DNA of 64,000 nt from Sinohyriopsis cumingii (lineage: Eukaryota > Mollusca > Bivalvia > Unionida > Unionidae), in contig CM068838.1 of NCBI GenBank assembly GCA_028554795.2, positions 131,883,428 to 131,947,427 on the forward strand, in the 5' to 3' direction. The position numbers were made by a program, and so were the translations under genes. This document shows positions 2,156 through 47,478 of this stretch, piece by piece. Position 1 is the first letter of the stretch. The number at the start of each line of letters is the position of its first letter. The notes beneath the pieces are model-generated. The model saw only the letters and a list, made by a program, of their open reading frames with translations. It was not told the origin of the DNA and did no database searches.

Positions 2156-3309
2156 TACAATCCAACAAACAACTGCCCCAACAAACGAAGAAGAAAAAAA
2201 ACAGATCTACTTGTTTGGTCTATCCAATAGTCATGCTATCGGGACTAGCTACAATCTAGCAACATTTGAAGGCAGGAACAGTAACTGCTACAATCGACCA
2301 GACAGTGTCTGATTCCTTTTGTTTTTAAAATGTACACAAGAAAAATAGTTTTGCTGAAACTTCAAAGAAAACTGATTACATTTGAAGCACCAGTCGTTTT
2401 GTAAAATTCCAAGCAATTTAAAAAAAATAAGTCTCCTTGTTCTACAATTATTTGATGTTGCCACAGCAATAAGAAACAGACATGTTTGATCCTCCAAAGC
2501 TGTACTTTAGTGGTGACTTCAATAACACATACACCCTTCATCATAGAAAGCTGACTACAATCTTCAATAACTAAAAAAAACTTTCATCAGAGGAAGTCAA
2601 CACCAAATTTAAAAGCAGTGGAATCCACTGGATTGTTGCATTTTCCAAAGTTTCTTATTTGCATAAAAAAATTGTTGTGCCATGAAAGTTTCATTTTTGA
2701 ACAAAAAATAAATTACACTTTCAGTCACTACATTTATGGCATAAAACACAAATTAAATTTACAATCTTTTGAAGCTATATATATCTGGCCGTCAAGTTAA
2801 TTGGAGATGGGTTATCTTTCAAAGATGTTTGTTAAACTTCTTAATTTGTTGACCTGTTTTTGTTTCCTTATGAATTGCCTCATGCCCCTGGGTAGCCTTG
2901 GTAAGAATACCAGCTGTCTCAATTTGAAAAAAATCTTGGCAGTTTTATGTACATGTACATGTAACATGCAAACAACTGTAGCCTTGTGCTATTTGTGACA
3001 GTTGTAGTGAATTGTTAGTGACAATATGATATAGATGAAAACGAGGACTACCAATTTGTTATATATGTGTTGTGTTTTCTAATGGGATATGAGTCATACA
3101 AGAATTTTAAAATGTGATTTATACTCCGATTCGTGGATTTATTATATACATATGGTACTTGATGGATTATGGATTTTACTATGCAGAATTAAGTTAATAT
3201 ACAAGTGTTTTTCAGACTAGTTTATCTTCATTTGATCAAAAGCATGTAATTTGGCCCCCACTTTTATTACCCACTCCATAATTTAGGTAAATGCATCAAT
3301 TCTTCAGCT

Positions 3310-11832: not shown

Positions 11833-12053
11833 GGTTTCAATATTACAGTGTCAAGTGGTAAAGAACTTGCTGATAGTCTTGACAAAGCTGTCATACCAGA
11901 AGACCAATACTTCAACACGATGTTGCGTATCATGACAACACGCTGTATGATGCAAGCAGTGTATTTCTGTAGTGGAACCATCTCTGAATCAGAATTCTTT
12001 CACTATGGGTTGGCTTCAGATATATATACACATTTCACATCTCCAATCAGAAG
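11833..12053 (+). CDS. DIS3: DIS3 exon a (RNB domain)
   Basis: Acceptor TTTTTGTCCTCAG precedes the exon and donor GTGAGG follows. The frame starts on a full codon ([10 protein letters not shown]) and ends after two bases of an arginine codon. It carries [18 protein letters not shown] and [18 protein letters not shown], the RNB motif with the RNA-contacting arginines at the base of the active-site channel. About 73 residues. Confidence 0.95.
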
Positions 12054-15000: not shown

Positions 15001-18000
15001 TGCTGTCAGCCATCAAATATGGCCACCTTTTCAAAAATATAAGAAAAACTTGTAAGACTGATTAAAAACACCAAACAAAATTGACTTTATTTTGAAAGAA
15101 AGCACCATGGCATAAGAGCTTTGAAGTTTTGTACAGTAGATGCTGACCCACCATCAGATATAGCCAACTATACATAAAATAATCTCAGACCCGCATGGGC
15201 CTCATGTTATCAATTATGACACTGCAAAAATTGTATGATACAGGTATGCTAAATATACTTGATTTGTTCAAATTTAATAATGCTGTGATTTACAATAATC
15301 ATTTGAAAAGACATAAAGCAAAGCCTCTGTTTGTGTATTGTTAGGTACTCCGATATCCTTGTTCACCGTCTGTTGGCTGTGAGTATAGGAGCTGATGCCT
15401 CTTACCCAGAGCTTCTAGATAAATATAAAACACAGGTAATTATGCTAATTAGTCTTGTGCTTTTTTAATTATCTGTACATTTAGTTGCATTATCCTATTT
15501 ACATTTGTATGGATGGCAGCATTTAAAATCCCCTCAGTGTTTAAGAACAAACTTGGGCAAAACAATCTTGGCGTTGATAGTTTAGTTGATTAAAAAATTA
15601 AATTCTTTTAATGATTGTATTTTTAGTCTTACTGCCTTCATGTTTTTTTACACACAATTTTAGGCGTGTTTTACAAGCACAAAATATATACATGCCATAA
15701 GATTGGGCATTTTATGTTTTGATGTCTGTCCAGCTTGCTCGTACCAATCAGTTCCCATTTTCATTTAAACTCAAAAACTCCTGTTGTCCTCCAGCTACAG
15801 TTACCAAACTTTTCAAATGGCTTACACTTGGGGAAATGTAGAATCCTGTTGTTTTAGGTAAAAAAAAGCCTGAAGGTCAGGGTCACTGAATGAAAGAAGA
15901 AATGTGGTTTTCAAACAATAACTTGAGTTCTACACCATCTACAGTTACCAAAATTTGACAATGGCTTGCACTTGGGGTAAAGAAGAAATCTATTTATTTC
16001 AGAGTCAAAAAATCTAAGTGCATGGTCATTGAAAGAAGAAAAATGGTTTCTGCACAATAACTAGAGTTCTCCATCATCTACTGTTACATGTTTTATGGAT
16101 GGCTTGCACTTGGGGTAAGGAAGAACCCTATTGATTTCAAGATGAAAAGGTCATAGGTCAGGGTCACTGACTGAAAGGATACAAATGGTTTCTGCACAGT
16201 AATTTGAGTTCTCCATCATTTATGGTCACCAAACTTTGTAAATGGGCTTCACTTTGAGTAAGGAAGAAACCTATTTATGTAGAGTCAATAGGTTTATGGT
16301 CACTTTGAGAGGATGGCTTGCACTATGGGTAAGAAAGAAGCATATCAGTTTTAGAGTCAAAAGGTCAAAGACCATGCTCACTGTGACTGAATAAAGATGA
16401 ATGGTTACCTACCAATAACATTAATTTGAAAAGTGGTTCTGCACACAAATTTCAGTTGGATATATAAAGTTACCATTAAATATGGGGCAGGCATATTATG
16501 TGTCATTCACAGTCCTTTTGTGATATTCTGTGAAGAGGGTATATGGTGTAACCTATGTCCATCTGTTGCATTTAGTTTTCACTCAAAATAAAAAAAATTG
16601 AATGACTTCCTGGGCTGCTTGCCAATGGTATATGGCTTTATATTAAGCAGACCTACGACAAGTTCTATTTTCTGTATTTTCAGACAAAATATGATTGAGT
16701 TATAGCCCCTGTTGGATTTGTAATTGAAAGGGTATGGGTTCGAATCCTTCCATTGGATACGCCTGGATTGGCTATTGTGGTGTGTTCATGGGCAGGGCAC
16801 AGCCTTGGCACTAAATAACCTACTTGTGTTTCTGTGCAGTAAAAACAGTTAATCACAGAATTTTGACCTTGCATAATCATTCCAACTTTCTTAATACTCA
16901 GTATTGGTGGTGTCATTAGTCATGTATCATCACATTTTTTAGTTTATTGGCTACAACAAAAGGACAGTGAATTGGCAGATTGGTTGTCTTTAAGGTGCTC
17001 TGCATTGATTGATCCCTATTTATATGCACATGGTATGGACATTAAGGATGAGAAATATGTCGGTATCTATGAACTATATTATATAAAGATCTGTTTTCCC
17101 AATCAGCAGAATTTAAAACTTAAAAGGAGGTTGTATATGATTCATTCTGTATGCACTACCTCAGTTACCACTGCTTTATACAAAGTTTAATGATGTACTT
17201 TAAATCATGGCTCATACAACCTTAATAGTTCCTTCAATTTGAGGGGAAGCCTTGAAAACTGCTTGAATTTGAAAAACATTGGTTTTATGCTTGATAGGTC
17301 TTAGAATATGACAAAAAACTTACTGAATTTATCTGGGAGATTACAGATTGGTTATATGGAATCAAATTTCTTTTTAAATTCAGAGTTTCTGTTATCTGTG
17401 TATTTTCCAAAAATAATTTAAAAATAAATAAAACATTATAAAATTGGATGGATTAACACTGGTAGTAATCAAATTAATATGTGGTAATGGTTCAGTTTTT
17501 GTAAGACAAAATGCTTCTTGAAAAGTTTTGGAAGTTTTTGAAAATTTCTTGAAAATTCCTTGAAAAAATATTGAAGGTTGCATGAACAATAATAAATATA
17601 TTTTGTATGTTTAAATCAATATAAAATACTGTTCATTCATTTTGTTGTCTCACCTGCCATAGCATGTGCAAGACAACTGCAAAATTTTTAAAATTGGCAC
17701 CCCAAACAAACATTTACAGTAATTTTAATCAACATCATCAGATATTAAAAGACTCTCTCATTTTATCTATATGTTTTAACCTCAATTGTCATTACAGAAT
17801 GCAAGGTTAAAGATATATTGTCTATATTTCAGTCTATTTGAAGCAACCTCAATCACACTAAAGGTTTTTCTATATGAAGTAACCTCAATCGCACTACATG
17901 TTTTTCTATATGAAGTAACTTCAATCACACATGTTTTCCTATATGAAGTAACCTCAATCACACTACATATTTTTCTATATGAAGTAACCTCAATCACTAC

Positions 18001-21000
18001 ATGTTTTTCTGTATGAAATGACCTCAGTTACCATCATAATTTGCCAATGTTAAGATATTGTGTATGTTTCAGTCATTGTAAAATAACTTCAGTTACCATC
18101 ACACAATGCTAATGGGAAAGAGATATTTTACATGTTTCAGTCTATATGTTTTAATCTCAGTTACCATCACAAAATACTAATGTGAAAGAGATGTTGTACA
18201 TGTTTCAGTTTATAACAGGGTTCGACACTAACACAGATCCGCTGGCCTGAGGCCACCTGATTTTCAGAAGGACCACTACTTTCCTAAAGCTGGGTGGTCT
18301 GTGGGGCCTTTTATTTTAAATTGTGGATATTAAAAATATATCTATCCCATGTTATAGGATTGTATAAACCTTTCTTTTAATTATAAACATATCAAACTCA
18401 GAAAAACTCACAAGTGAAATGAAGTTAAAACAAAACAAGACCATGCCTACGCCTTTTAAACTAAATTATCATTGTCATTTGGGTGCTTACCATAAATCGT
18501 TTTTTTTAGGCATTTACATTGTTAATCATATAAGAGCATCAAGCATTTATGCAACTGACATTTTGTTATGTGGTTTCACATGTTTGAAAAATGTGATTTC
18601 TTGATAGTGTCTCACCATAACCCCAAACGCAAAAAACTAAAGATGAAAAACTTGAAGTATAACCTGAATTTGATAAAACCAAAACGGAACCAAAATTCCA
18701 AGATATGCCTACCTGAAAACGAATTTCTGCGGCTAAACCACAACAATTAGAAGGCTTGAAAATATGTTACACTGCTAATTTATATCAACGTTTTGACCAA
18801 AATCAGCACCATATAGCAAATTCATGACTTTTCATACACTAGATGCATAATTTTAACAGAACTGATCACCAGCTTGTGAGGTATCAACTTTTGGGCTGTT
18901 ATATTGACGATTTTCAGTGCCATCCTACATTATAATAAATATGATTTAACCCTTCACCATCTTGTCAAAGAGTTAAGAATTTTTTATTTGCTAATCAGTT
19001 TTTTGGAACATATAGCTGTAAAATTAAATCATTGTATAGTAGGGTGCATATTGCATCTTTGATTCACCCTGATTGTACTTATATTTTGGAGGTAATCAAA
19101 GCAATGTGAATTGTAATGCACAATGAAAGAGACTTTTTACTCAAAATTACCAAACTTAGGAAAAACTTTGAATACATGTTTTAAATGTCTTTTTTATTGT
19201 ATAAATTCATTAATACTTTTACATTTTTTTACTTTAAGGTATTACAAAAACAATTTGTCCATTTTTTAAATATTTTCCAACTTCCCCTTTATTGAGGAGA
19301 AAATTGTTGATCTCCAAAGGTTGAAAATTGTACACCTTGAAAATGTCATTTTAAAAATACCTTGAGCATATTAACTCATATACTGACTAATGTGAAATTA
19401 TGTGACTTGGACAAAGGGAAGTTTGGAAATAGGCAGTACCTATGTGATAAATATTGTCAGAAATTTATCAGGGCTATTAGGTCAGAACAGGACCATATCA
19501 TTTCCTTTGGTCAGTTTTGGTCAGTTATTACTGATGGCTCCACCGATACATCTTCCAAAAAGGCAGAAATTGTATAACCTCTTTCGAGTCCAAGGTAAAT
19601 ACTATTAACTTTCATTTGATATTATTGAATTTAAACTATTAAACCATGAATTTAAATTTAGATACATTCCGTTTATAATATTGTAAACTCTTAAACCACC
19701 AATATAACATTAAATCTGTTCTAGTTTATTTGTTTCAATTCAGTAATTTAGTATTTCTTCATAGGTTTCAAGTCATTTATTGGTATAAAAATTTACCCAA
19801 GGTCAACAGTGAAACCATCAGTAGTACTATAGCAGGCTCTTGTCAGCGAGATATGGGAATGCATGGATGAAAAAGAATGTTGCTGTGGGAACATATGATA
19901 GGTCTTACATTTGATGCTGCTGATGATGCTTATGATGATCATGAAAAATATCACTCACAAGATTTCTCAGCATTACAAAACAAAGCATATAAACTGTTGA
20001 TGAATTCATTGTAAACTAAAATATAATAACCATTCTTGATGTTCTATTTTATTGTATAGATTACACATTTTTTCATTAAGTAAAACCATAAACGAGAAGG
20101 ATCTTCTACCAGTTTCCAAAATCAGAAAGTCCTGTGGGCTTCCTACTTAAAAAACTTAGTGTCGAACCCTGTTATATGTTATAATCTCACTTATCATCAC
20201 AAGTTGCTAAGGTAAAAGAGATAGTCTGTGTATTTCAGTGTTTTTACTGTAATATCAATTTCCATCACAAACTGTTATATTATAAATGTGAAAGAGATAT
20301 TGTGTATATTTCAGTCTGTATGCAACAACCTCAATTACCGTCACAAGATGGCCCAATATGCTGGGAGAGCTTCAGTGAATCTTCACACACATGTGGGTGA
20401 CATTTTTAAAGTTGATGCATAATGCTAAGCTCATTTGTCTTATGATAAAATATCTCCTGTTTTATTTATTTTGCATGATGCATTTTTAGCTCTTCAGGTT
20501 ATGGACCAGAATAGCTTTTGAGATGGTCTGTTGTTCGTCATTTGTCAGTCTCTTAGCACAAGTTTGTTGTTGCTACTAAACTACAGGGAGGATTGCCATG
20601 AAACTTGGACACATTAATCCCATGGTTTAGTTGCTCTGAAATGAAAATGGTGCCAATCTGTTGTCCATTATGGATGCTGCAACCATCGTGAAAACTCTGC
20701 TATCGCTACTTTTCTGAACAGAAAGTCATATTGATATTGGGCTTTCATCGGAAGACTTCATATCATGCCTTGTTGATACAGAATGAGAATGGTGCGGCTC
20801 GACATCCCATATCGCCGCCACAGTGACCATCTTGAAAATCTTGTTATAGCTACTCCACCTGAATAGATAGTCTTCTCACCATGGGTTTTCACTAAAAGAC
20901 ATGACATCTAGTGGGTCCTAAATAAAAATGGTGCCAATCTAATGTCCCATACGGCTCCTGCAGTGGCCATCTTGAAAATCTTGTTGTAGCTACTTATCCT

Positions 21001-24000
21001 GAATGGATAATCATATTGATCTTGGGTTTGCACTAAAAGACTTTTTGTGATATCTAGTTGGTCCTAATTGAAATTGGTGTGCATCTGATGTCTAGAGTGG
21101 CTGTCATAGCAGCCATCTTGAAAATCTTGTTATCACTTATCCTCAGGAACAAAAAGGAATATTGCCATGGAGTTTTCATTGGAAGACTTTTCATGAAGTT
21201 TAGTTGGTCCTAAATGAAAACAATGCTGCCTGCACATCGAAGATGACAGCCACATTAGTCCTCTTGAAAATCTTCGTATTGCTACTTTTCTTGAATGGAT
21301 GGTCAGTCATATCAGGATGGATTGTTTTACTGAATTGCTACTTAAAATGTCTAGTTTGTCATCAATAAAAATGACGCTGTGCAGACATACAGTACAGTTG
21401 CCACAGGAGCCATCTTGAAAATCTGGTTATTGTTGTTTCTTGTAAATGACTGGTCATAACAATATTGTGTTCACCAGAAGGCTTTGGTCCTAAATTGAAA
21501 TGGTGCCAGTCTGATATCCAATATGGCTGCCATCTTGTTATTGTTAATTCTTCAAAACACAAATTCATATCAGCATGGGGTTTCCACTAGAAGGCTTCCT
21601 ATGATGTCTTATTCGTCATAAATGATGTCTTGTTCATCATAAATGATGACTTGTTGGCCCGAAATGAACATCCAGTATGTCCATCACAGCAGCTAATTTG
21701 AAAATCTCATTCTTGCTGAAGAATATCAAAGATGGTTTCAACATCAAGCAGTAAATAGGAAGAAATGGTCTTATCTTAAATTCATGGAAATTCTTTCCAG
21801 TTAGTAGAACATCAATCCCTTTGAGGGATTCTTCTTTTAGATACTTTTCCCATTTCATCTAGAAAGAGGAAACTTGGACTTGTTATTTATTTCATGTTGT
21901 TTATATACGTGTAAAAGTGTATAAGAAGAAAATAAGTCAGAAAACTGCTCTTTTAGTGGTCGTACTTTGTATGAGACATTTTTGCATTCTTCATTTTTTA
22001 TCTAAGTAACTTCCAAAATTGCTAAAAATGTATCTGCAACACAATTTCCTTATTTCTTTCATTCATATTTACCTGAATTAGTTGCAAATCCCCTGTCCAG
22101 ATTTAACTGGCCTGCATTAACTAATAAGACATGGGTATGACTTCTTGGTTGCAGGCAGTGTCTTTTGTTGTTAACAATGTATATATCATAGGAATCTTGC
22201 AGTGTATGTGCATTTAGAACCACCTAAAAGCTGATATAACATATATTTTAATATAACAGACCCAGATATAACATGCATCCTGAGACAACATTGACATTGT
22301 TATAACTTACGTTATAATAAAGTGCACATCCAAACACATCATGCATCCTTGTATAACATACATCCTAATATAACATACATCCTTACATAACATACATCCT
22401 TATACAAAATGCATTTTTATACAACACACATCCTATTATAAAATATATCCAGATATAACACATGTCCTAATAAAACATTCATTCGAATAAAACATGTCCT
22501 AATAAAACAAACATCTAAATATAGCATGTGTCATAATAAAACATACATTCAGATAAAACATGTCCTAATAAAATATGCATCCAAATATAACATGCTTCCT
22601 AATAAAACATACATCCTAATAAAACATGCATCCAAATATACGTCCAAAAATAAACAAGCATTCTAATAAATCATACATCTGAATAAAACATGTCCAAATA
22701 GAAGATGTGTCTTAATAAAACACATCCTAATAGAAGATCTGTGCAAATAAAACATGTATCCTAATAAAACATATGTACAGTTTACATGAGAGACATTGAT
22801 ATTCATAAAATCTTTGTAATTCATACTCAAACCCATGATTATCTGAAACCCTTTTTTCTTTCTTTATGATAATCACGTAATTTCTGGATCACTGAAATGA
22901 TTATGCCATACATTCTTTTTTCAGTTATTTTTCAAGAAGCGTGTTATAGATGAAGAGGGATATGTGCTGTTTGTCAGAAAAAATGCGCTCCAGATTTTGA
23001 TCCCCAAGTATGGTTTAGAGGCCACGCTCTATCTCAACACAGACAGGAGGAAACAGGGACCCAGCTTTGAGTTTGATGAGGAGGTATATAAGGGGATAAG
23101 CCCTATGTGGGTGGGTGGGTGCATGTGTGTGCACTAAAATCAGTTATATATTTGCCTGACAGGGCTGTTTTTTTTAAAAAATGTTTTGGATTGAGTATAA
23201 AATGCCAAAGTCAGACTTAAATATTTTTCTGTTAGGACTTTATAAATACTTGTTCTAACTTCAACTCATCCAAGGTATAGGCTTTTTGCTTTATGCTTAT
23301 GATATACATTGTGATAGTTGAAACTGTTTTTATAAATGATACAGGGTAACCTCTACCAGGAAAATAGTTACCTGCTTCAACCAAGTTTGGGATTAGACCA
23401 TTCATTTCTTGGACACAGAGGAAACCCTAACAAACAGTTTTGTATTCAAGACCCCAAAATGGTCTTGATTGGTCATTATATATCAGAGACCCCAAAATGG
23501 GCTTATTTGGTCATTGTATATCAGAGATCCATATCCTCATATTTGGTCGTTATGTATCAGTTATCTCAGAATGGTCATATTTTGTCATTGTGTCAGAGAT
23601 CCCAAAATGGTCTTATTTGGTCATTATGTATCAGAGATCCGAATATGATCTTATTTGGTCATTATGTATCAGAGATCCCAATATGATCTTATTTGGTCAT
23701 TAATATATTCCCAGTTGTTGAAACACTGTAGCCATAAAGCACAAAGCAAAAGAGGTGTGAAAGCTTGACTTAATCAAACTCTATAATTCAACATTTGTTC
23801 CAGGTCAGTGCTATATAAATTATATCAGCCCCTCGTAGAAATTATATCAGCCCCTCGTACTGTTTACTTTTTATTTATATTGTGTAGCAGTTTGTCAACA
23901 CGTATCAGACATTTCATGTAAAATATGTGTAGCCATGGCTTGAATTAAAAAGAGCAATAATAACTTCATTTTATCATCCAGCAATGCTTGTCAAATGAAA

Positions 24001-27000: not shown

Positions 27001-30000
27001 TAGGAAAGTGGGTTATCTTTCATATAGAGAATCCACCCAGCTTACCTCAGAGGATGCCCTTGGTATAGATATGATGCTCTTATTATCACCAATTCTCCTA
27101 ATTTTAAAATGATTAGTGAAAATATATAAAGGAGATTTTCAGTAAGTTGTGTTTCTCTTAGAATACTTGCTCAATCACATTACTTTAAAAATTTCCAACC
27201 TTCCCACCACCATGTGAGCATCCTCCTTGATATTTTGGTCAGCTTAAAAATAGTGACTAGGGAGGTAATGGGCCCTTTGTCTACATCATATACAGTACAG
27301 CTCATGCGGTGACAGATTTAATCCCCTCCACTTTCGCTCTACAACAGAGCAGTAAATACCTACAGATCACCAGCATGCTGAGGGCAGCTCCACATTACTG
27401 ATTAACATTTGATCAGCCAATGAATGAAGACCACCCATGAAAAGGCTGAGATATTGTGAGTGATTTACAATCCAATAACTTTTCAAGAATCAAGTGACCT
27501 TTATTTCAATCATATATTTGGACAATTTAAAAAAATAGTTAAAAATTTCTTGTATATTTTGTACATTTAGAAAAGATTGATAGACTTCTTTTGCAGTATG
27601 TTTACACTTTTATTTCATTCAAAGAAATCTGAACAAACCTGCACTATGACTTGACTAGAGGCACAACTTGTTAAAGCCCCAGTGCCGCCATAATATGCAG
27701 AAAGGCTTATATGCCAAATCATCTGAATAAAACTGAATATTGAAAGATATTGGTCCTAAACATCATTTGGTTCTATTGAAACCAGATAACATTGATGTTT
27801 TGTCACATTATGAGCCATGTAATTTCTCCATCAAAATTAGAAACCCTGCCATTTTTCACATGTTTGCAAAATTAATTAAATATTGATAGGTGACATCCAT
27901 GGGTCAACTAGTTTCAGTCGAAAGCTGGAACACAAGGCTGGATGATGTCACCATTGTAAATATCAGAAGCCAACACAAGAGTATGTCAGACTGTCTTCTC
28001 CCTTCAAAGTATTCCAGTGAATCAGCTGGTCACCGATATCCACCAGAGTCTTATTTTTATAGAATGCATGATATGTTGTCTCAGATCTACTTTAAAAAGC
28101 CAGCTTGTCTCTCTTCATTCACCCACAAATCAATTTGTGTGCCTCTTGTGAATGTTGTTGTTATTAGATTAGTCACTGACAGAATTTGTCTAATGTATTG
28201 CATCACTACTTTTGAAGTACTCTCAAAGAAAAAGAATGGAATTACTAGCAATTTTGTTGGTGTGGAATCTCTTAATTCTAAACTGAATGTTTGAACATCA
28301 TTTAAACCTAACATCTTGATTATTTCAAAGAATGGTTGTCATATAGTTTTCTTAACAAATCATTCATTCCTCTCTTGAACAGTGTGAATTTATTCTACTA
28401 TTTTAACTTGAAAAGTAAACCCGTGAGTTGTTGACAGTTATATTCCAGATGACAACTGGTTTCTGTTCAAAATGCGAACAACAAAACAGGAAAAACCAAA
28501 TTTGTACTTAAATGCAAACCATGTGTTTAGTCACAAGGCTGAATATACATTTACACAACTTTTATCTAGTTAGTTTTGACTAAACGTGTACTATAGGGGA
28601 CTGACTATTTATGGGGCTACATTGTTCTTTCCAACAGCAATAATTTTTGTTGCTTAATTCATCACAAGATAAATTTATTTTAGGTAAGAAAAGGAATGAC
28701 ACAGTATCCTTTTTGTAATACAAATCAGAACAAGACAAATGTTTCCAAATATTTCCTTACCTCCATTAGAAAATTAAATGGCCTGTCCCTAATAAAGACT
28801 TCAGTGGATGTTGTGTAGAATCTAAAAAGTAACCATTGTAAATAATGGTAATATTATCTAAAATTTGATTAGACATTATGTCTATTACATTATCTTCATT
28901 AGAACAAGGTAACGTTTAGAATCAGCGATAATAATGAGGCTAAATTGGTGCCTCTCTCTCTCTCTCTCAAGAAATAGTTTGCTTGCAGGGATCATACTTA
29001 GTAAACCACACCCACTTGATGCAGACCACATCCACTCCATGGTGGTCATCCACAACAACTCTGCAAGAAAGCATGGTGTGCAGAGGCCACCGCAAACCGC
29101 CACAGTAACTACATCAGGATGCATGGCTAGAAGGTGGAGGGCTTTATTTCATAATCCTCTCCACTCTCCACCCCGACCATAATGCATGGGGTTTCACAAG
29201 ATCTGATAGCTGTACCATAGACAGAAAAGATATTTGGCTGTTTTTAGGAGAGATGGATACAGGGGGTAGCAAGACTATTTTCCTAACATTAACATGACCT
29301 GATAAGTTATATTGGATAAACAAAATTTACTGACAAATTTACTTTTTCATATCATTGGGGGTCATCATTGATGGACATACATGGTAAAATAGAGCTGATC
29401 CAGCACATATTTATTTGAGGTACAGCCTCAATTACCATTGATAGCCAGTCATTTGATCATAGTGTCTTTTCATGCATTCTAGCTAATTAATCCTTTAGAA
29501 CAGTCTTAAATTGTGTCAAGTTAACAAGGTCTAATCTTTGAATATCTGATAATAGTACAAGTGATTTAATTTAAGGAAATGCTTTAATTTTTTTCTTCAG
29601 AAAAATGTCCAGAGGTGTGGTGGTGTGACATTTCATGTCTTCGACAGAGTAATTGTACAGCTTAGCATAGATCGCTCTAACGTCCAGCATCTCAAACTGA
29701 AACTTGAGCTTGTTAAACCAGAGGTAATTTTAATTACTGTGAATTCACCATTTTTGTCTGAGTGCCCATTTTGGTGAATATTCATGGCTGCAACTAATCA
29801 TTAATTTATGGATTCATTGGATAATAATCCTTCTGTAATCGGACCCCCATTTTCATGCATGAATAATAATCCATCTGTAATTGTACCCCCTTTTTCATGC
29901 ATGAATAATAATCCCTCTGTAATCGGACCCCCATTTTCATCTATGAATAATAATTCATCTGTAATCGGACACCCATTTTCATCTATGAATAATAATCCAT

Positions 30001-33000
30001 CTGTAATTGGACCCCCATTTTCATGCATGAATAATAATCCCTCTGTAATCGGACCCCTATTTTCATGCATGAATAATAATCCATCTGTAATCGGACCCCC
30101 ATTTTCATGCATGAATAATAATCCGTCTGTAATCGGACCCCCATTTTCATCCATGAATAATAATCCATTTGTAATCGGACCCCCATTTTCATCCATGAAT
30201 AATAATCCATCTGTAATGGGACACCCATTTTCATGCTTGAATAATAATCCATCTTTAATCAGACCACCATTTTTATGCATGAATAATAATCCATCTGTAA
30301 TCGGACCCCCATTTTCATACATGAATAATAATCCATCTGTAATTGGACCCCCATTTTCATCCATGAATATTAATCCATCTGTAATTGGACACACTTTTTC
30401 ATGCATGAATAATAATCCATCTGTAATCGGACCCCCATTTTCATGCGAGAATAATAATCCATCTGTAATCAGACCCCCATTTTCATGCATGAATAATAAT
30501 CCATCTGTAATCAGACCCCCTTTTTCATGCATGAATAATCATTTGTAATTGGACCCCCATTTTCATGCATGAATAATAATCCATCTGTAATTAGACACAC
30601 TTTTTCATGCATGAATAATAATAATCGGACCCCCATTTTCATGCATGAATATTAATCCATCTGTAATCAGGCACCCAATTTCATGCATGAATAATAATCC
30701 ATCTATAATCGGACCCCCATTTTCATCCACAAATAATAGTCCATCTGTAATCGGACGCCCATTTTCATCCATGAATAATAATCCATCTGTAATCGGACAC
30801 CCATTTTCATCCATGAATAATAATCCATCTGTAATCGCACACCCATTTTCATCCATGAATAATAATCCATCTGTAATTGGACCCCCATTTTCATCCATGA
30901 ATAGTAATCCATCTGTAATCGGACCCCCCTTTTCATGCATGAATAATAATCCATCTATAATCGGACCTCCATTTTCATCTGTAATCGGACACCCAGGGTG
31001 TAGGTTTCAATAAAGAGAGATACCTTTATTTTATATATAATTTATATTTAGTTCTAGTGGATTGTTAGCAACTCTCACTTCAGGGATGTTCTGCACATCC
31101 TGGATAGTGTTGTGTTTATATACAGGCCTTGTGATGTTCAGAGCTCTAATAAGACTTGATTGGTTCAATCCTGAATTTGTCATTTCCATTGACAAACACA
31201 CTGGTTGAATTTCCAGCCTTTGCTGGTTTGGGATTTTGTTTGCAGTAACGGCAAAACATCTTTCCTTTAATGATTCATGTCATGGATAAATTATCAATCC
31301 AATGTGACTGAAAATTTATCAGTCTCATTGGTGTCATATTTGACATGTTTTGCTGCCACAGTGTCTAGCTTATGTCTTTTTGAAGAAACAGTTACCTCCA
31401 ACTCAGTAGCAGCATTACATTTTATCACTCCACTTTCACATATTTCTTCTCCAAATTTTCTCTATAACCTTCCTCGTGAAAATAGTTAAGTAAACTCATC
31501 TTATGCACATAGTAAAGATAACATCACTTCTAAACCACTTCCAAAAGTTGTCACAAGATATATTTTGTGGTTTAAATATAAACAGGGGCTGCTCCTTATT
31601 TACCTTAATCATTTTGCTTCAAAACAGAATATTGCATATAGCAGCTTATCCTCTTTTTATAATTAAGAATTACAGAATTATTACTGTCATTTAATCAGTT
31701 ATAAAGGAAACCAACTCTAATATCAGTGAAGTGATATTTTAAAATTTAATTGCATTGACTCGTGGGATTGAAATAAAAGGTGATCCACTTGTGAGTATCA
31801 GGATTGACTAAACACAATATAACAAAGCCATTTAAAATTAACCATACTATTTTTGTGTGAAGTGTTTTGATTGGCAGATAATTCAGTTGCTTAGTCCAAT
31901 AGAATGCATGTGACAGTTATCATTGACCTCTGACTGTTGAGAAAGTTGATTCATACATTCAATATGGCCAGGGTTATGAATGGCAAAGTATGAAGGTAGT
32001 TAAAGTGATTAAAACATGAAAATTTGTGCTTGCCTTCTTGATTTAAAATTCGAAAATAAGCACCTATCCTGGACTGGCAGTTTGCAAATATTTACTTGTC
32101 CATCTTCAAAAAATATTAGTGTGAAACATAGGGCTAAGGGATTTTATCAGCCCTGGAGAAGAAATAGTCTTCTCATGGACGCTGTACAAATTCTTTTCAA
32201 CTTTAAAGTATAGGACCTTTCAAAGGACTTTTGTTAAAATTTTCACACCCTGTTATATACAGATTTGAAACTTTAGATATACCTAAATGCCATTTAAATG
32301 TTTTATTTCTATTATCTTTTCAAGTAAATCACAGTATTTTAGCATCGATGAATTTTGACAATTTTCAGTAGCAGCATTGGACCAAATTAACAATGAGCAA
32401 ACATGTAAATTTTTTATGGTAGTGTATTTACTAAGAGTAATTACTGGAACAAGTGGCATAGACCCTGATCTGTTAGTGCATTATGCAATGGCAGATCAGG
32501 GTTTATGTTGTTTGCTGTTGGACTGAAGTTATATGCAAGTGTATTTACAATAATGGTTATTTTTAACACATGAAATGGTTGCTTTATTCCAATGTAAGTT
32601 GAACAAATTGAAAAATGTTTAAAATAATATTTAAAAGAACAGCATTATTTTAAATATAAAGTTATAACTTATAACCTATAATTATAGGTCCATCCTCTTA
32701 CTCTTTGACATCCTAAATATATCAAAGCATTCTTGAAATGGGTGCTACTAACAAATAAACCTATAAAATAAATTTTCTGTTTTCATTGATTTTTTGTGTT
32801 GTTTTTCTTGTACCATATATATTGTGAATTTCATTTGACACAGTTTTAACACAAATAAATTGTTAGCACAGATAAATTTTCTTGCTCAAGTACTCAGATT
32901 TTATTTTTCCTGATATATGATGGTTTACACTATTTGTTTTTCAGGTCCCAGGCTTTAGTGTGCCTGAAGCCTCTCAAAGGGATGTGAATTCAGAGGAACC

Positions 33001-33025
33001 ACCAAAGAAAAAAGTCAAAACATAA
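11833..33025 (+). CDS. DIS3: DIS3 (Rrp44) exosome exoribonuclease, 3' half of gene, six exons
   Basis: DIS3 is the processive 3'-5' hydrolytic exoribonuclease (and PIN endonuclease) of the RNA exosome, acting mainly in the nucleus. Exons 11833-12053, 15345-15435, 20315-20392, 22925-23083, 29601-29723 and 32945-33025 are all bounded by AG/GT. They join without frameshift into 250 residues plus a TAA stop. The product covers the RNB end ([46 protein letters not shown]), then the S1 domain ([20 protein letters not shown]) and a basic tail (PPKKKVKT). These motifs and the short spacing between them fit DIS3 rather than DIS3L or DIS3L2. The PIN, cold-shock and N-terminal RNB parts, including the catalytic aspartate cluster, are not in the window. 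Introns of 2.5-6.5 kb are packed with repeats. I see no sign that the gene is broken. Confidence 0.95.
12432..12494. repeat. (CA)n microsatellite with CGCA interruptions
   Basis: ACAC dinucleotides run for about 60 bases with a central GCACGCACGCACG interruption. It sits in the first DIS3 intron of the window. Confidence 0.95.
12940..15180. repeat. Old degenerate dispersed or tandem repeats in DIS3 intron
   Basis: Several blocks echo each other at low identity: a GACTCATTTCAACTAAATTTG-like start, 'AGAGAGCATCCTGGAATTAAGG', 'CAGTATTGTACAAG...' and 'CCATCAAATATGGCCACCTT'. They occur near 13020, 13170, 14450, 14740, 14935 and 15080. The pattern suggests an ancient array of ~130-bp units. Blocks at 13320-13420 also repeat CCTATTTAAATA-type words. 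No protein was recognised. Confidence 0.45.
15345..15435 (+). CDS. DIS3: DIS3 exon b (RNB domain)
   Basis: Acceptor ATTGTTAG and donor GTAATT bound 91 bases. The first G completes the arginine begun in exon a. The peptide [20 protein letters not shown] continues through [10 protein letters not shown] and matches the RNB C-terminal helices. It ends on a complete codon. Confidence 0.95.
15700..16480. repeat. Degenerate ~110-bp tandem repeat (family D)
   Basis: Units share 'AATGGTTTCTGCACAATAACT', GAGTTCTCCATCATCTA, GGCTTGCACTTGGGGTAAG and 'AAAAGGTCA...GGTCACTGA'. They occur near 15830, 15930, 16040, 16150 and 16300. A similar array lies at 36120-36680. Function and origin are unknown. Confidence 0.65.
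16690..16870 (+). mobile_element. Possible tRNA-derived SINE fragment (third type)
   Basis: GGTTCGAATCC at 16737-16747 is a good Pol III box B. It is followed ~45 bases later by TGTTCATGGGCAGGGCAC, the kind of body sequence seen in other animal tRNA-SINEs. Box A is not convincing and no target duplication was found. Confidence 0.4.
17833..18015. repeat. ~35-bp minisatellite nested in the acceptor array
   Basis: Five to six units of TATATGAAGTAACCTCAATC followed by ACACTACATGTTTTTC, 33-37 bases each. The unit core TATGAAGTAACCTCAATCAC resembles the exon-c start TATGCAACAACCTCAATTAC. It therefore looks like a secondary expansion of part of the exon-derived repeat. The period leaves short frames open on both strands; these are not genes. 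Confidence 0.8.
18216..20171 (+). mobile_element. hAT-like DNA transposon remnant
   Basis: Perfect 16-bp terminal inverted repeats CAGGGTTCGACACTAA bound 1956 bases. A transposase fragment lies inside. The CAGGG start fits hAT elements. An 8-bp target duplication is not clean: the flanks share only a TTATA-like core. The element sits inside the acceptor-derived tandem array, so it inserted after that array formed. Only about 240 bases of recognisable coding sequence survive and it is inactive. Confidence 0.75.
19362..19960 (+). pseudogene. hAT-type transposase fragment
   Basis: A 71-codon frame at 19362-19577 contains [17 protein letters not shown] followed by [15 protein letters not shown]. 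The DGSTD-S box is the first catalytic aspartate region of ZNF862/ZMYM-like hAT transposases. Further pieces follow to about 19960 with frameshifts and stops. The zinc-finger start and the rest of the catalytic core were not found. Orientation agrees with the enclosing terminal repeats. Confidence 0.65.
20315..20392 (+). CDS. DIS3: DIS3 exon c (RNB end)
   Basis: Acceptor TATATTTCAG and donor GTGGGT bound 78 bases, an exact 26 codons. The peptide starts [20 protein letters not shown] and ends VNLHTH. A GT six bases downstream of a possible read-through was rejected as donor because joining at 20392 gives HTH-LFFKK, matching the family. Five decoy acceptor copies lie upstream in the same intron. 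Confidence 0.95.
20500..21700. repeat. Degenerate 120-150 bp tandem repeat (family C), about 8 units
   Basis: Recurrent signature: TTGGTCCTAAATGAAAATGG, 'TGCCAATCTGATGTCC', CCATCTTGAAAATCTTGTTA, 'GCTACTTATCCTGAATGG', 'GGGTTTTCACTAAAAGACTT'. The first unit opens with ACTACAGGGAGGATTGCCATG. Units differ by 15-30 % and by indels. The same family occurs at 10715-10985 and 38640-40060. No ORF of note. Confidence 0.75.
22230..22790. repeat. AT-rich 15-17 bp minisatellite
   Basis: Words of the type ATAACATACATCCTAATA and AATAAAACATRCATCC are repeated about 30 times with drift. It lies in the DIS3 intron just before the exon at 22925. Confidence 0.8.
22925..23083 (+). CDS. DIS3: DIS3 exon d (start of S1 domain)
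   Basis: Acceptor TTTTTTCAG and donor GTATAT bound 159 bases (53 codons, phase 0 at both ends). The peptide [20 protein letters not shown] continues into [17 protein letters not shown], the junction of RNB and the C-terminal S1 fold in DIS3. Confidence 0.95.
23440..23705. repeat. ~38-bp minisatellite, about 7 units
   Basis: The unit CTTATTTGGTCATTATGTAT followed by CAGAGATCCCAAAATGGT repeats between 23440 and 23705 with a few substitutions and shortened copies. The overlapping open frames here are products of the repeat and not genes. Confidence 0.88.
24169..25758. mobile_element. MITE-like DNA element with TA flanks
   Basis: CAGTAAAACCTGTTA at 24171-24185 is matched by its reverse complement TAACAGGTTTTACTG at 25742-25756. 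Both ends are flanked by TA, as expected for a Tc1/mariner-type target duplication. Weaker complementarity continues inward (ATGGTCTCT...). The 1.59 kb interior has no recognisable transposase, so it is a non-autonomous or decayed element. Confidence 0.55.
25759..27660. other. DIS3 intron sequence, nothing recognised
   Basis: No exon or transposon protein was recognised. A 61-codon frame at 26670-26855 and its shadow on the other strand have no support. Confidence 0.5.
27665..28290 (+). repeat. Interspersed repeat family B, copy 1
   Basis: This segment is matched in inverted orientation by 40880-41485. Shared blocks include TTGTTAAA(G/C)CCCC, 'ATGCCAAATCATCTGAATAA', GAAAGATATTG, 'CATCATTTGGTTC', 'CATTATGAGCCATG' and a coding-looking stretch. 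The translated frame at 27890-28294 ([15 protein letters not shown]...) resembles the frame on the opposite strand at 40902-41282 (GEPSSVESWNTGFEG...). Family unknown, about 0.6 kb, probably a non-autonomous transposon. Confidence 0.7.
28291..29600. other. DIS3 intron sequence, nothing recognised
   Basis: Only a short CT-rich run (near 28950) and chance ORFs were seen before the acceptor at 29599-29600. Confidence 0.5.
29601..29723 (+). CDS. DIS3: DIS3 exon e (S1 domain)
   Basis: Acceptor TTTTTTTCTTCAG and donor GTAATT bound 123 bases (41 codons, phase 0). The peptide [20 protein letters not shown] continues [15 protein letters not shown], the last strands of the S1 RNA-binding domain. A 42-bp minisatellite begins 84 bases downstream of the donor. 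Confidence 0.95.
29808..31005. repeat. 42-bp minisatellite, about 28 copies, open on both strands
   Basis: The unit is AATAATAATCCATCTGTAAT followed by CGGACCCCCATTTTCATGCATG. Because the period is 14 codons, long frames stay open on both strands: [14 protein letters not shown] on + (246 codons, 29808-30548) and [14 protein letters not shown] on - (243 codons). A single spacer near 30545-30640 breaks the array. It lies wholly within the DIS3 intron. The open frames have no splice support, and the sequence from exon e reaches a stop before the array, so it is read as satellite DNA. Confidence 0.93.
31006..32944. other. Last DIS3 intron, unique AT-rich sequence
   Basis: No further exon, repeat array or transposon protein was recognised between the minisatellite and the terminal exon. 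Confidence 0.5.
32945..33025 (+). CDS. DIS3: DIS3 terminal exon, copy 1
   Basis: Acceptor TATTTGTTTTTCAG precedes 26 codons plus TAA. The peptide [20 protein letters not shown] ends in KKKVKT. The PGxSxP start and basic end match the DIS3 family's C-terminus, and PPKKKVKT looks like a monopartite nuclear localisation signal. A second version of this exon follows at 33058. Confidence 0.93.
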   Translation, partial: VPGFSVPEASQRDVNSEEPPKKKVKT

Positions 33026-33057
33026 GACAATGATTGCGGCATGATGTTTTACTTAAG

Positions 33058-33138
33058 ATCCAAGGTTTTAGTATGCCTGAGACCTCACAAAGGGACATCA
33101 ATTCAGAGGAACCTCGAAAGGAAAAGATCAAAACTTAA
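33058..33138 (+). CDS. DIS3: Tandem duplicate of the DIS3 terminal exon (putative alternative last exon)
   Basis: This is an 81-base block, exactly the length of the terminal exon at 32945-33025, with 16 differences and no indel. It is preceded by an AG (TTTTACTTAAG) in the same phase and read in frame to its own TAA. The peptide IQGFSMPETSQRDINSEEPR ends in KEKIKT. Seven differences are silent; most others are conservative (V to I or M), and the basic tail is weakened. The polypyrimidine tract is poorer than copy 1's. It could be a true alternative acceptor 113 bases downstream or a decaying duplicate within the 3' UTR. Transcription is not shown by sequence alone. Confidence 0.6.
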   Translation: MQGFSMPETSQRDINSEEPRKEKIKT

Positions 33139-33596
33139 TCTTTACCTTTTGCCATGACAGCTGTGGAAAAGAAGGGTGCTTCAAAAAGAATAATGCACAT
33201 ATCTTGGGCAAGTCCCTGATTTTAAAAGATACGGTTTGTTTTGTTATTGAAAAAAACTGAAACACTGCTGTTGATGATAATATTTAATGAAACTAGTTTG
33301 TCTGCATTCCAGATAAATTTTAAAGTCATGTTATTTGAGTCATAATTTTAGTGCCCTTTATTGTTATGAATGAGACAGTCATTTAAACTTTAGATATTGA
33401 ATGCACAACAAAACTCTGCCAACTTCTATGACAGCTTAGATGTTGGTATAATGTTTACTTGTAGTTACATGAAACTAGAGCATCCATGCCAACCATTACA
33501 CTTTTGGCGTGATCAGTATGCTTTTTGTCACCTGATTATATTATATTCTTGTCTGTATATGGAATAAGCTATTATGGTACATAAAAAAATTAAAGC

Positions 33597-33602
33597 AATA
33601 AA
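33597..33602 (+). terminator. Putative DIS3 polyadenylation signal
   Basis: AATAAA lies 572 bases after the first DIS3 stop, within an A-rich run and before GT/T-rich sequence (TTGTGTTTGTCATGTG). This would give a 3' UTR of about 0.6 kb. Confidence 0.45.
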
Positions 33603-33966
33603 AAAAAATTGTGTTTGTCATGTGTATTATCATCTCATTAATCCCATACATCCCATGAGTCTTAGAATAATCTAAAATAGAAGACTGCTGCATAAGAGTA
33701 TGTTTGTCCATCATAAACCTACATGTACTTGCCTCATTTTCTATCAATAGCATCTGTATATGACACATTTCTATATATAAAAAATCAGGTTTTGACAGTT
33801 TGGAATTTATGTTACAGATTCATTATAATAATGAAAACGGTTGTAAACCAGTCTATAATTTTTTTTAAAAATGCCACAAGATGTTGAGCAATAGACGTGA
33901 CTCATGTCTCATGTATGTTATATGACTGAAAAATGGTAGAGGAATAGGACCTTTTCAAACTTTAAA

Positions 33967-34210
33967 GGGGGCCCCATGTGGTCAAGTGGTCTAAAGTGCT
34001 CTCCGTTACAGATCACTGCCATCTCACCTCTGTCTACATGAGTTAGAGTCTTGGATTCAGCCAATGTGGGTTTGTGAGAAAGCTTCCCAGGAGCTTCTCT
34101 TGGGTGAGTGGTTCTTTCCGGGGTTTTCCTGTGTTCTTCCTCCACCATTAATACTCGCCAAGTATAGCCTATCGTGTCCTAAAAAATGGCATTAAACCCT
34201 ACAACAACAA
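33967..34210 (+). mobile_element. tRNA-derived SINE, family S1
   Basis: Head GGGGGCCCCATGTGGTCAAGTGGTCTAAAG, body TGAGAAAGCTTCCCAGGAGC and ...AAAAATGGCATTAAACCCTAC, and an (ACAACA)n tail. An 11-bp target duplication CAAACTTTAAA lies at 33956-33966 and 34211-34221. It sits just beyond the presumed DIS3 3' end. Confidence 0.9.
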
Positions 34211-34258
34211 CAAACTTTAAAAACATGTTGAATCAGAAAAATTACAAATCAATAGTAC

Positions 34259-45676: not shown

Positions 45677-45789
45677 CCCAATCAGATAGGTTCAGCATTT
45701 AAAATATTTTAGACGTTGTGCGAGACAGTTCAAGCTACTGTTACATAAAACTTATTATTTTATCCATTTACGTACAATAAAGAACAGTA

Positions 45790-47478
45790 ATGCCTCGAAA
45801 GTGTGTTAATACCGCGGACAATTTTTGCTATATTTGTGGGGAAGTGACATTTGCCAACCAGAAGAAAAGTATCAATTCTCAAGTGAAGAAGGCATATCAT
45901 CTTTACTTCGGATGCAAGGTTGGTGACCAAGACAAGCCTTGGGCTCCGCATATATGCTGTGCTACATGTACAACACAGCTTTCACAGTGGTTGAATTGCA
46001 AAAGGTCATCAATGCCGTTTGCAGTCCCAATGGTGTGGAGAGAGCCAAGCAACCACCTAAATGACTGTTACTTCTGCTTGGTTCCTCCTCTTTCCGGCGG
46101 AATAACGAAGCGAAAGAAGTCGAGAATAGTCTACCCAAACATTCCGTCTGCATTGAGACTAGTTCCACATGGTGAGGGACTTCCTATTCCAGAACCTCCA
46201 GCAGAATATTCTCTTGATTCATCTGACGAAGACAAAGGTGAGTCGACCTGTTCTTCTCCTGGTCCATCAGCATGCAGTGATCCAGATTTTCACTGTGGTG
46301 CATCATCAACCCCACACAGAATAACACAGGAAGAACTAAATGACCTGATTCGTGATTTGGACTTATCAAAGAACAAGGCAGAATTGCTAGGATCAAGACT
46401 CCAACAATGGAATCTTCTAGAAGAAGATGTCACAATTACTGCATATCGAAAGCGCCACCAGCAATTGGAGCCTTTCTTCAGAAAGGAAAGTAATCTGATA
46501 TTCTGTTCCGATATTGAGGGCCTCATGAATGCTTTAAAAATCACTCATGACCCACAAGAATGGAGACTATTTGTGGACTCTTCGAAACTGAGTCTCAAGG
46601 CTGTGCTTTTGCACAATGGAAACATTCTTCCATCTATTCCAGTAGCGTATGCTGTCCACATGAAAGAGACATACGATAACTTAAGGCAGCTACTGAATTC
46701 CATTGAGTATAACAAGTACAGCTGGCACCTCTGTGGTGATTTGAAGGTAGTTGCCCTTTTAATGGGACTGCAGCAAGGATATACAAAATACATGTGTTTC
46801 TTATGCGAGTGGGATAGCCGAGCAAGGGAAATGCACTACATGAGGAAGGAATGGACTCACAGGCAGAATGTAGCCATTGGAGAGAAGAATATCCAACACC
46901 CAGCTCTGGTTGAGGCTCAGAAAATCTTGCTACCACCCCTTCACATCAAACTAGGTTTGATGAAGAACTTCGTGAAAGCCATTGACCGGACTTTGCCAGC
47001 ATTCCGATACCTGCATGAAAAATTCCCTCGACTCAGCTAAGCAAAGATTAAAGAGGGAGTTTTTGTGGGTCCTCAGATTCGAGAGCTTTTCGAAGATGAC
47101 CGGTTCAACAACTTGCTGGAAGGTGACGCGAAACAAGCATGGAATGCTTTTCGCCTAGTTTCTACAAACTTCCTCGGAAATGTTAGGGCAGAAAACTATA
47201 AGGAACTAGTAGAAGACATGTTGATGAAGTATAAGAAACTTGGCTGCAATATGTCTCTAAAGATTCACTTCCTTCATTCCCATTTCGATTTCTTTCCTAG
47301 CAACTGTGGTATTGTTAGTGATGAACACGGCGAACGTTTTCATCAAGATATCGCAACAATGGAACAAAGATACCAGGGAAAATGGTCCACTACAATGCTG
47401 GCTGACTACTGCTGGACACTCCTCAGAGATGCTCCCGAACAGCTGTACAAGAGACAGGCGAAGAAATCTAAGATGTAG
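45790..47478 (+). pseudogene. Transposase-like protein, interrupted by one in-frame stop
   Basis: ATG at 45790 opens 416 codons to TAA at 47038-47040. The same frame then continues without break to TAG at 47476-47478, 562 codons in all. A zinc-binding N-terminus has C13-x2-C16 and H54/C57-x2-C60. D263 (FVDSSKLSLKAVLLHNGN), D317 (CGDLKVVALLMG, followed by C336-x2-C339) and E512 or E515 (SDEHGERFHQD) are candidate DDE residues. The order and the C-x2-C after the second Asp fit RNase H-fold transposases of the CACTA/Chapaev group. I recall near-identical 'uncharacterized' proteins from many invertebrates, where this point is an acidic codon; a single change to TAA explains the stop. Truncation removes the third acidic residue. 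An exon of a host gene is unlikely because terminal repeats enclose it. Confidence 0.85.

Follow-up and report, generated by a model that had tools for sequence, protein, structure and literature searches.

The duplicated terminal exon of DIS3

The 64,000-nucleotide stretch of Sinohyriopsis cumingii DNA analysed here (the window) contains six exons on the + strand which match, in order, residues 712-957 of the human RRP44/DIS3 chain. In a scan covering the window from position 3001 onward these were located at 11833-12053 (part of the RNB domain), 15345-15435, 20315-20392, 22925-23083, and 29601-29723, the latter being the penultimate exon, which ends in phase 0 before GTAATT, and at 32945-33025, the 81-base terminal coding segment (copy 1), which encodes a 26-residue tail and ends in the stop codon TAA. 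Joined to the exon ending at 29723, copy 1 matches residues 901-957 of 960 of human RRP44 (E 1e-11), a C-terminal match that identifies it as the terminal exon of DIS3/RRP44; certain further open frames of the window, searched for DIS3, gave no match. On the contig and strand that carry these exons, two more RNB-domain matches precede the window (C15:131858241-131858360 and C15:131879572-131879751); they are probably earlier exons of the gene. In vertebrates DIS3 and BORA are neighbours; when this neighbourhood was sought as a check on the gene, the genome yielded a single BORA_N match, which lies on another contig.

Copy 1 is followed, after a gap of 32 bases, by a second + strand block of 81 bases (copy 2; 33058-33138) which would encode IQGFSMPETSQRDINSEEPRKEKIKT and is likewise closed by TAA. 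Alignment left the coordinates given in the preliminary description unchanged and bore out its counts: 65 of the 81 positions are identical, with 16 substitutions (10 transitions and six transversions; six, two, and eight at codon positions 1, 2, and 3) and no indel in the coding block, and the in-frame TAA of copy 2 is present. The two copies, 80% identical and offset by 113 bases, are both open in frame, each with its own stop as in the duplicated terminal exon of the oyster alternative oxidase (AOX) gene, and the peptides share 18 of 26 residues. In the repeat search the match continued for five bases upstream of the blocks (TTCAG before copy 1, TTAAG before copy 2). The duplication is real, and copy 2 is an old tandem copy of the terminal coding exon of DIS3.

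Chance similarity was ruled out with a search for ungapped 81-base pairs of at least 64/81 identity at spacings of 40-400, which returned 158 pairs in the real window and none in five mononucleotide shuffles of it; outside tandem arrays, which were removed by hand from the TRF list, the only such pair in the window is that of the DIS3 exon copies. A divergence of 20% rules out a recent assembly artefact. The copies are not a dispersed repeat either, as the copy 1 peptide matches just two places in the 2.9 Gb genome, namely the two copies, and as the 39 matches outside the window that were obtained in a DNA search with 32700-33700 (the best 40 scored of 1051 candidates) all start at 33465 or later. 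Read-through of the first stop into copy 2 is ruled out by the spacing of 113 bases, which is not a multiple of three and would lead into another frame.

Several other features of the window and genome were recorded. The last DIS3 intron holds a 42-base minisatellite of about 28 copies (29821-30978) which is open for some 245 codons on both strands; its Pfam match to ATP1G1_PLM_MAT8, for which no single stretch passes the threshold, looks like a repeat artefact. A second isolated direct repeat, in a DIS3 intron (20801-20882, spacing 140, best 49/60), surfaces only under a looser rule of 46/60 and is a possible neutral comparator. A pair of open frames at 45781-47478, one of 419 and the other of 145 codons, shares a reading frame interrupted by a single stop codon; neither gave a Pfam match at 0.01, and together they have the look of a piece of a mobile element. 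On C1, C3, and C129, mostly clustered on C1 and C129, there are 17 nearly full-length RNB-domain matches without stops, in open frames of 459-1392 codons; these make up an expanded family separate from DIS3, in which the RNB domain is uninterrupted.

Splice acceptors, 3' end, and origin of the duplication

The preliminary description credited copy 2 with an AG acceptor of its own; the dinucleotide is there, but the site around it is weak. Acceptor 1 with its pyrimidine tract (TTACACTATTTGTTTTTCAG; 32925-32944, + strand) scored 6.22 bits with a generic frequency matrix, above all of the 1008 intronic AGs from the five DIS3 introns that served as decoys, whereas acceptor 2 (GGCATGATGTTTTACTTAAG; 33038-33057, + strand) scored -3.38 bits, a value reached by 51% of the decoys. 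With a genome-derived matrix the scores were 7.50 bits (0.1% of decoys as high) and -1.86 bits (35% as high); this matrix was built from 37 automatically picked starts of myosin-head exons, some of them doubtful, which remained when 40 exon starts were taken from 71 matches and three had no in-frame AG in range. Acceptor 2 is thus about 9 bits under acceptor 1 and close to the average intronic AG, and in its sequence (TTTACTTAAG) 11 bases of the pyrimidine-rich tract are apparently missing. The sole strict yTnAy site in 33010-33057 stands seven bases from the second AG. Since each matrix also rates another DIS3 acceptor as weak (the generic one 20315, the genome-derived one 15345), use of acceptor 2 is possible, and five of the 37 training sites score no higher than it does. 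Because the penultimate exon ends, at 29723, in phase 0, copy 2 would be in frame after splicing to acceptor 2, as had been proposed. Any such use should nevertheless be minor against the far stronger site 113 bases upstream.

No AATAAA or ATTAAA was found between the copies; from this and from the strength of the acceptors, the usual mRNA most likely has copy 2 in its 3' UTR. The first such motifs past copy 2, at 33589 and 33597, are inside a dispersed repeat which starts near 33474, continues past 33700, holds the first AATAAA after DIS3, and occurs at 39 other places with 73-77% identity (among the best 40 scored of 1051 candidates). It is followed, at 33968-34213, by another dispersed repeat about 245 bases long, with 39 other places at 87-91% identity among the best 40 scored of 7323 candidates.

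A likely but tentative source of the two copies is a tandem duplication of some 124 bases bordered by ATGA, the proposed first unit (32917-33040, + strand) comprising the intron end, the exon, and the start of the 3' UTR, and the proposed second unit (33041-33153, + strand) comprising the same without 11 bases of the tract region. The 32-base gap can be read accordingly as 3' UTR of copy 1 followed by the intron end of copy 2. The sequence ATGATGTTTTAC (33041-33052) matches ATGATGGTTTAC upstream of copy 1, after which 11 bases are apparently missing from copy 2 ahead of its TTAAG (P 0.001 in comparison with shuffles; tentative), leaving two mismatches in the 17 aligned bases of the intron-side flank. 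The earlier statement that the copies differ by no indel thus stands for the coding block and tentatively fails for the upstream flank, where the difference may be a loss in copy 2 or a gain in copy 1. On the other side, TTGCGGCATGA after copy 1 pairs with TTGCCATGA after copy 2 at a nearly equal offset (P 0.0016, and only 0.049 without the ATGA). The motif ATGA is present at 32917, 33041, and 33154, the pattern that a short microhomology would leave if the tandem duplication arose there; the ATGA at 33030, a fourth occurrence, plays no part. The flank alignment was anchored on ATGA after inspection, and of two control pairs not expected to be homologous one reached P 0.016 and the other 0.62. 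In looser local alignments, P was 0.42 and 0.23 for the gap against the sequence that follows copy 2, and 0.036, or 0.32 for longer stretches, for the upstream sequence against the gap. It is because of the control at 0.016 and of these mostly non-significant local alignments that the edges of the unit are held to be tentative.

Possible constraint on the second copy

A Nei-Gojobori comparison of the copies counted 7.5 synonymous differences in 16.6 sites and 8.5 nonsynonymous differences in 61.4 sites, which corresponds to dS 0.69 and dN 0.15. The resulting dN/dS of 0.22, a measure proposed in the preliminary description, is a hint of constraint on copy 2; the synonymous and nonsynonymous counts, rounded down to 7/16 and 8/60, differ with a Fisher p of 0.012. 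Simulations were run with copy 2 neutral and copy 1 evolving at omega 0.05, 0.2, 0.5, or 1; each model comprised 1500 accepted runs, a run being accepted if it had 15-17 differences. In that order of omega, the probability of 8.5 or fewer nonsynonymous differences was 0.30, 0.22, 0.15, and 0.07, that of copy 2 keeping frame and stop was 0.46, 0.48, 0.55, and 0.60, and that of both together was 0.13, 0.10, 0.08, and 0.04. A BLOSUM similarity at least as high as observed, a statistic picked after the changes had been inspected, had probabilities of 0.050, 0.029, 0.017, and 0.005, falling to 0.026, 0.018, 0.008, and 0.003 when an intact copy 2 was required as well. When omega was set to 0.2 or 0.3 for both copies, the data were ordinary (P 0.88 or 0.70 for the nonsynonymous count, 0.43 or 0.23 for the similarity).

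It had been argued that a neutral relic at this divergence should show indels or premature stops. This was overstated: intactness of the frame is weak evidence since neutral copies stayed intact in 46-60% of the simulations, frame and stop survived in 35-40% when all 16 changes were put on one copy, and the probability of zero indels was 0.45 at an assumed indel:substitution ratio of 0.05, falling to 0.04 at a ratio of 0.2. The conservative nature of the changes, noted at the same time, is real and only moderately unlikely under neutrality; it suggests, with moderate force, that the protein reading of copy 2 was constrained during part of its history. The functional argument for copy 2 is, on this comparison of sequences, partly supported.

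We consider the following account the best, with a probability of roughly 0.62. An old tandem duplication spanning about 124 bases would have reached from the final stretch of the last DIS3 intron, through the terminal coding block, into the beginning of the 3' UTR; the coding copies are directly visible, the edges of the unit tentative. Acceptor 1 would be the one mainly spliced, giving a DIS3 that ends in PPKKKVKT, and the terminal exon so formed would carry copy 2 within its transcribed 3' UTR, as inferred from the strength of the acceptors and from the absence of any AATAAA or ATTAAA in the gap. Copy 2 would then be either a relic once used for a time or a minor isoform.

That copy 2 was never coding at all, and is a purely neutral relic, is a sub-case of this account with which its probability overlaps, and we regard it as doubtful. 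Intact frames are common under neutrality, and the intron-side flank is not more diverged than the coding block, but the flanks carry at least one indel against none in the 81 coding bases, and the joint probabilities are low for few nonsynonymous changes in an intact copy (0.04-0.13) and lower still for conservative changes in one (0.003-0.026). A functional tail switch, in which certain tissues or conditions would employ the alternative 3' splice site at 33058 and so produce a DIS3 ending in IQGFSMPETSQRDINSEEPRKEKIKT, appears unlikely. The equal length, frame, stop, and phase of the copies would fit with it, as would the dN/dS, the similarity found in just 0.5-5% of the neutral simulations (0.3-2.6% with an intact frame), and a layout identical to that reported for the oyster AOX gene (PMC5589949); it has to contend with an acceptor about 9 bits weaker than its competitor, near the decoys and apparently missing tract bases, and with the simpler test for few nonsynonymous changes, which gave P 0.07-0.30. 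Gene conversion rather than selection on copy 2 as the process that kept the blocks alike is improbable, for although copies 113 bases apart could convert each other, conversion alone favours no synonymous excess and the observed ratio is 0.22.

If copy 2 is a relic, the locus illustrates that a local duplication can put a coding-looking block into a 3' UTR, and that in such a block a frame that has stayed intact does little by itself to show use. If acceptor 2 is used, the exosome nuclease would have an isoform differing at its C-terminus, and whether the DIS3 tail acts as an import signal could be tested on a natural pair of tails.

The C-terminal tail and known systems

The monopartite nuclear localisation signal (NLS) has the consensus K-[KR]-x-[KR]. 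By eye, KKVK in the copy 1 tail PPKKKVKT fits this pattern and PRKEKIKT of copy 2 does not; the latter keeps four basic residues and has lost the KKKxK run. The copy 1 tail aligns with PKKKKMK of human DIS3, whose residues 949-958 are, according to the paper on the human exosome cryo-EM structure, a possible NLS by bioinformatic prediction and exposed to solvent (PMC6072439). As the human protein has 958 residues (PMC6024818), these are its last ten and include PKKKKMK. The NLS-like character attributed earlier to PPKKKVKT is upheld. Judged by eye, the changes have mixed polarity: one tail position is closer to human in copy 2 than in copy 1 (R rather than P, for human K), and another is farther from it (E, for human K). 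An effect of the copy 2 tail on localisation is speculative, and a lineage-specific switch in which regulated use of acceptor 2 weakens the import signal, giving nuclear and more cytoplasmic forms of DIS3, would be very improbable.

Among the literature matches listed there was no C-terminal splice isoform of DIS3 and no duplicated DIS3 terminal exon. Human DIS3 isoforms 1 and 2 are splice isoforms of this exosome nuclease; the reported difference between them lies in exon 2 and the N-terminal PIN domain, and not in the C-terminal tail (PMC6024818). Exons 3 and Ab of U2AF1 are reported as duplicated and alternatively spliced (PMC5224494), as the DIS3 copies would be if acceptor 2 were used. 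The nearest layout is that of AOX in Crassostrea virginica and C. gigas, in which exon 10 is duplicated: there too a terminal coding exon is present in tandem duplicate with a stop in each copy, and an alternative 3' splice site leads to two proteins of equal length (PMC5589949). The AOX copies, as reported, are 63.5% alike, against 80% in DIS3, and both appear in mRNA with a use that shifts under stress, whereas those of DIS3 were read from genome sequence; the AOX duplication is common to two oyster species (PMC5589949), whereas that of DIS3 was read in one genome, and acceptor 2 of DIS3 is weak. With these differences, the DIS3 case can be described as the oyster AOX kind of arrangement in another gene.
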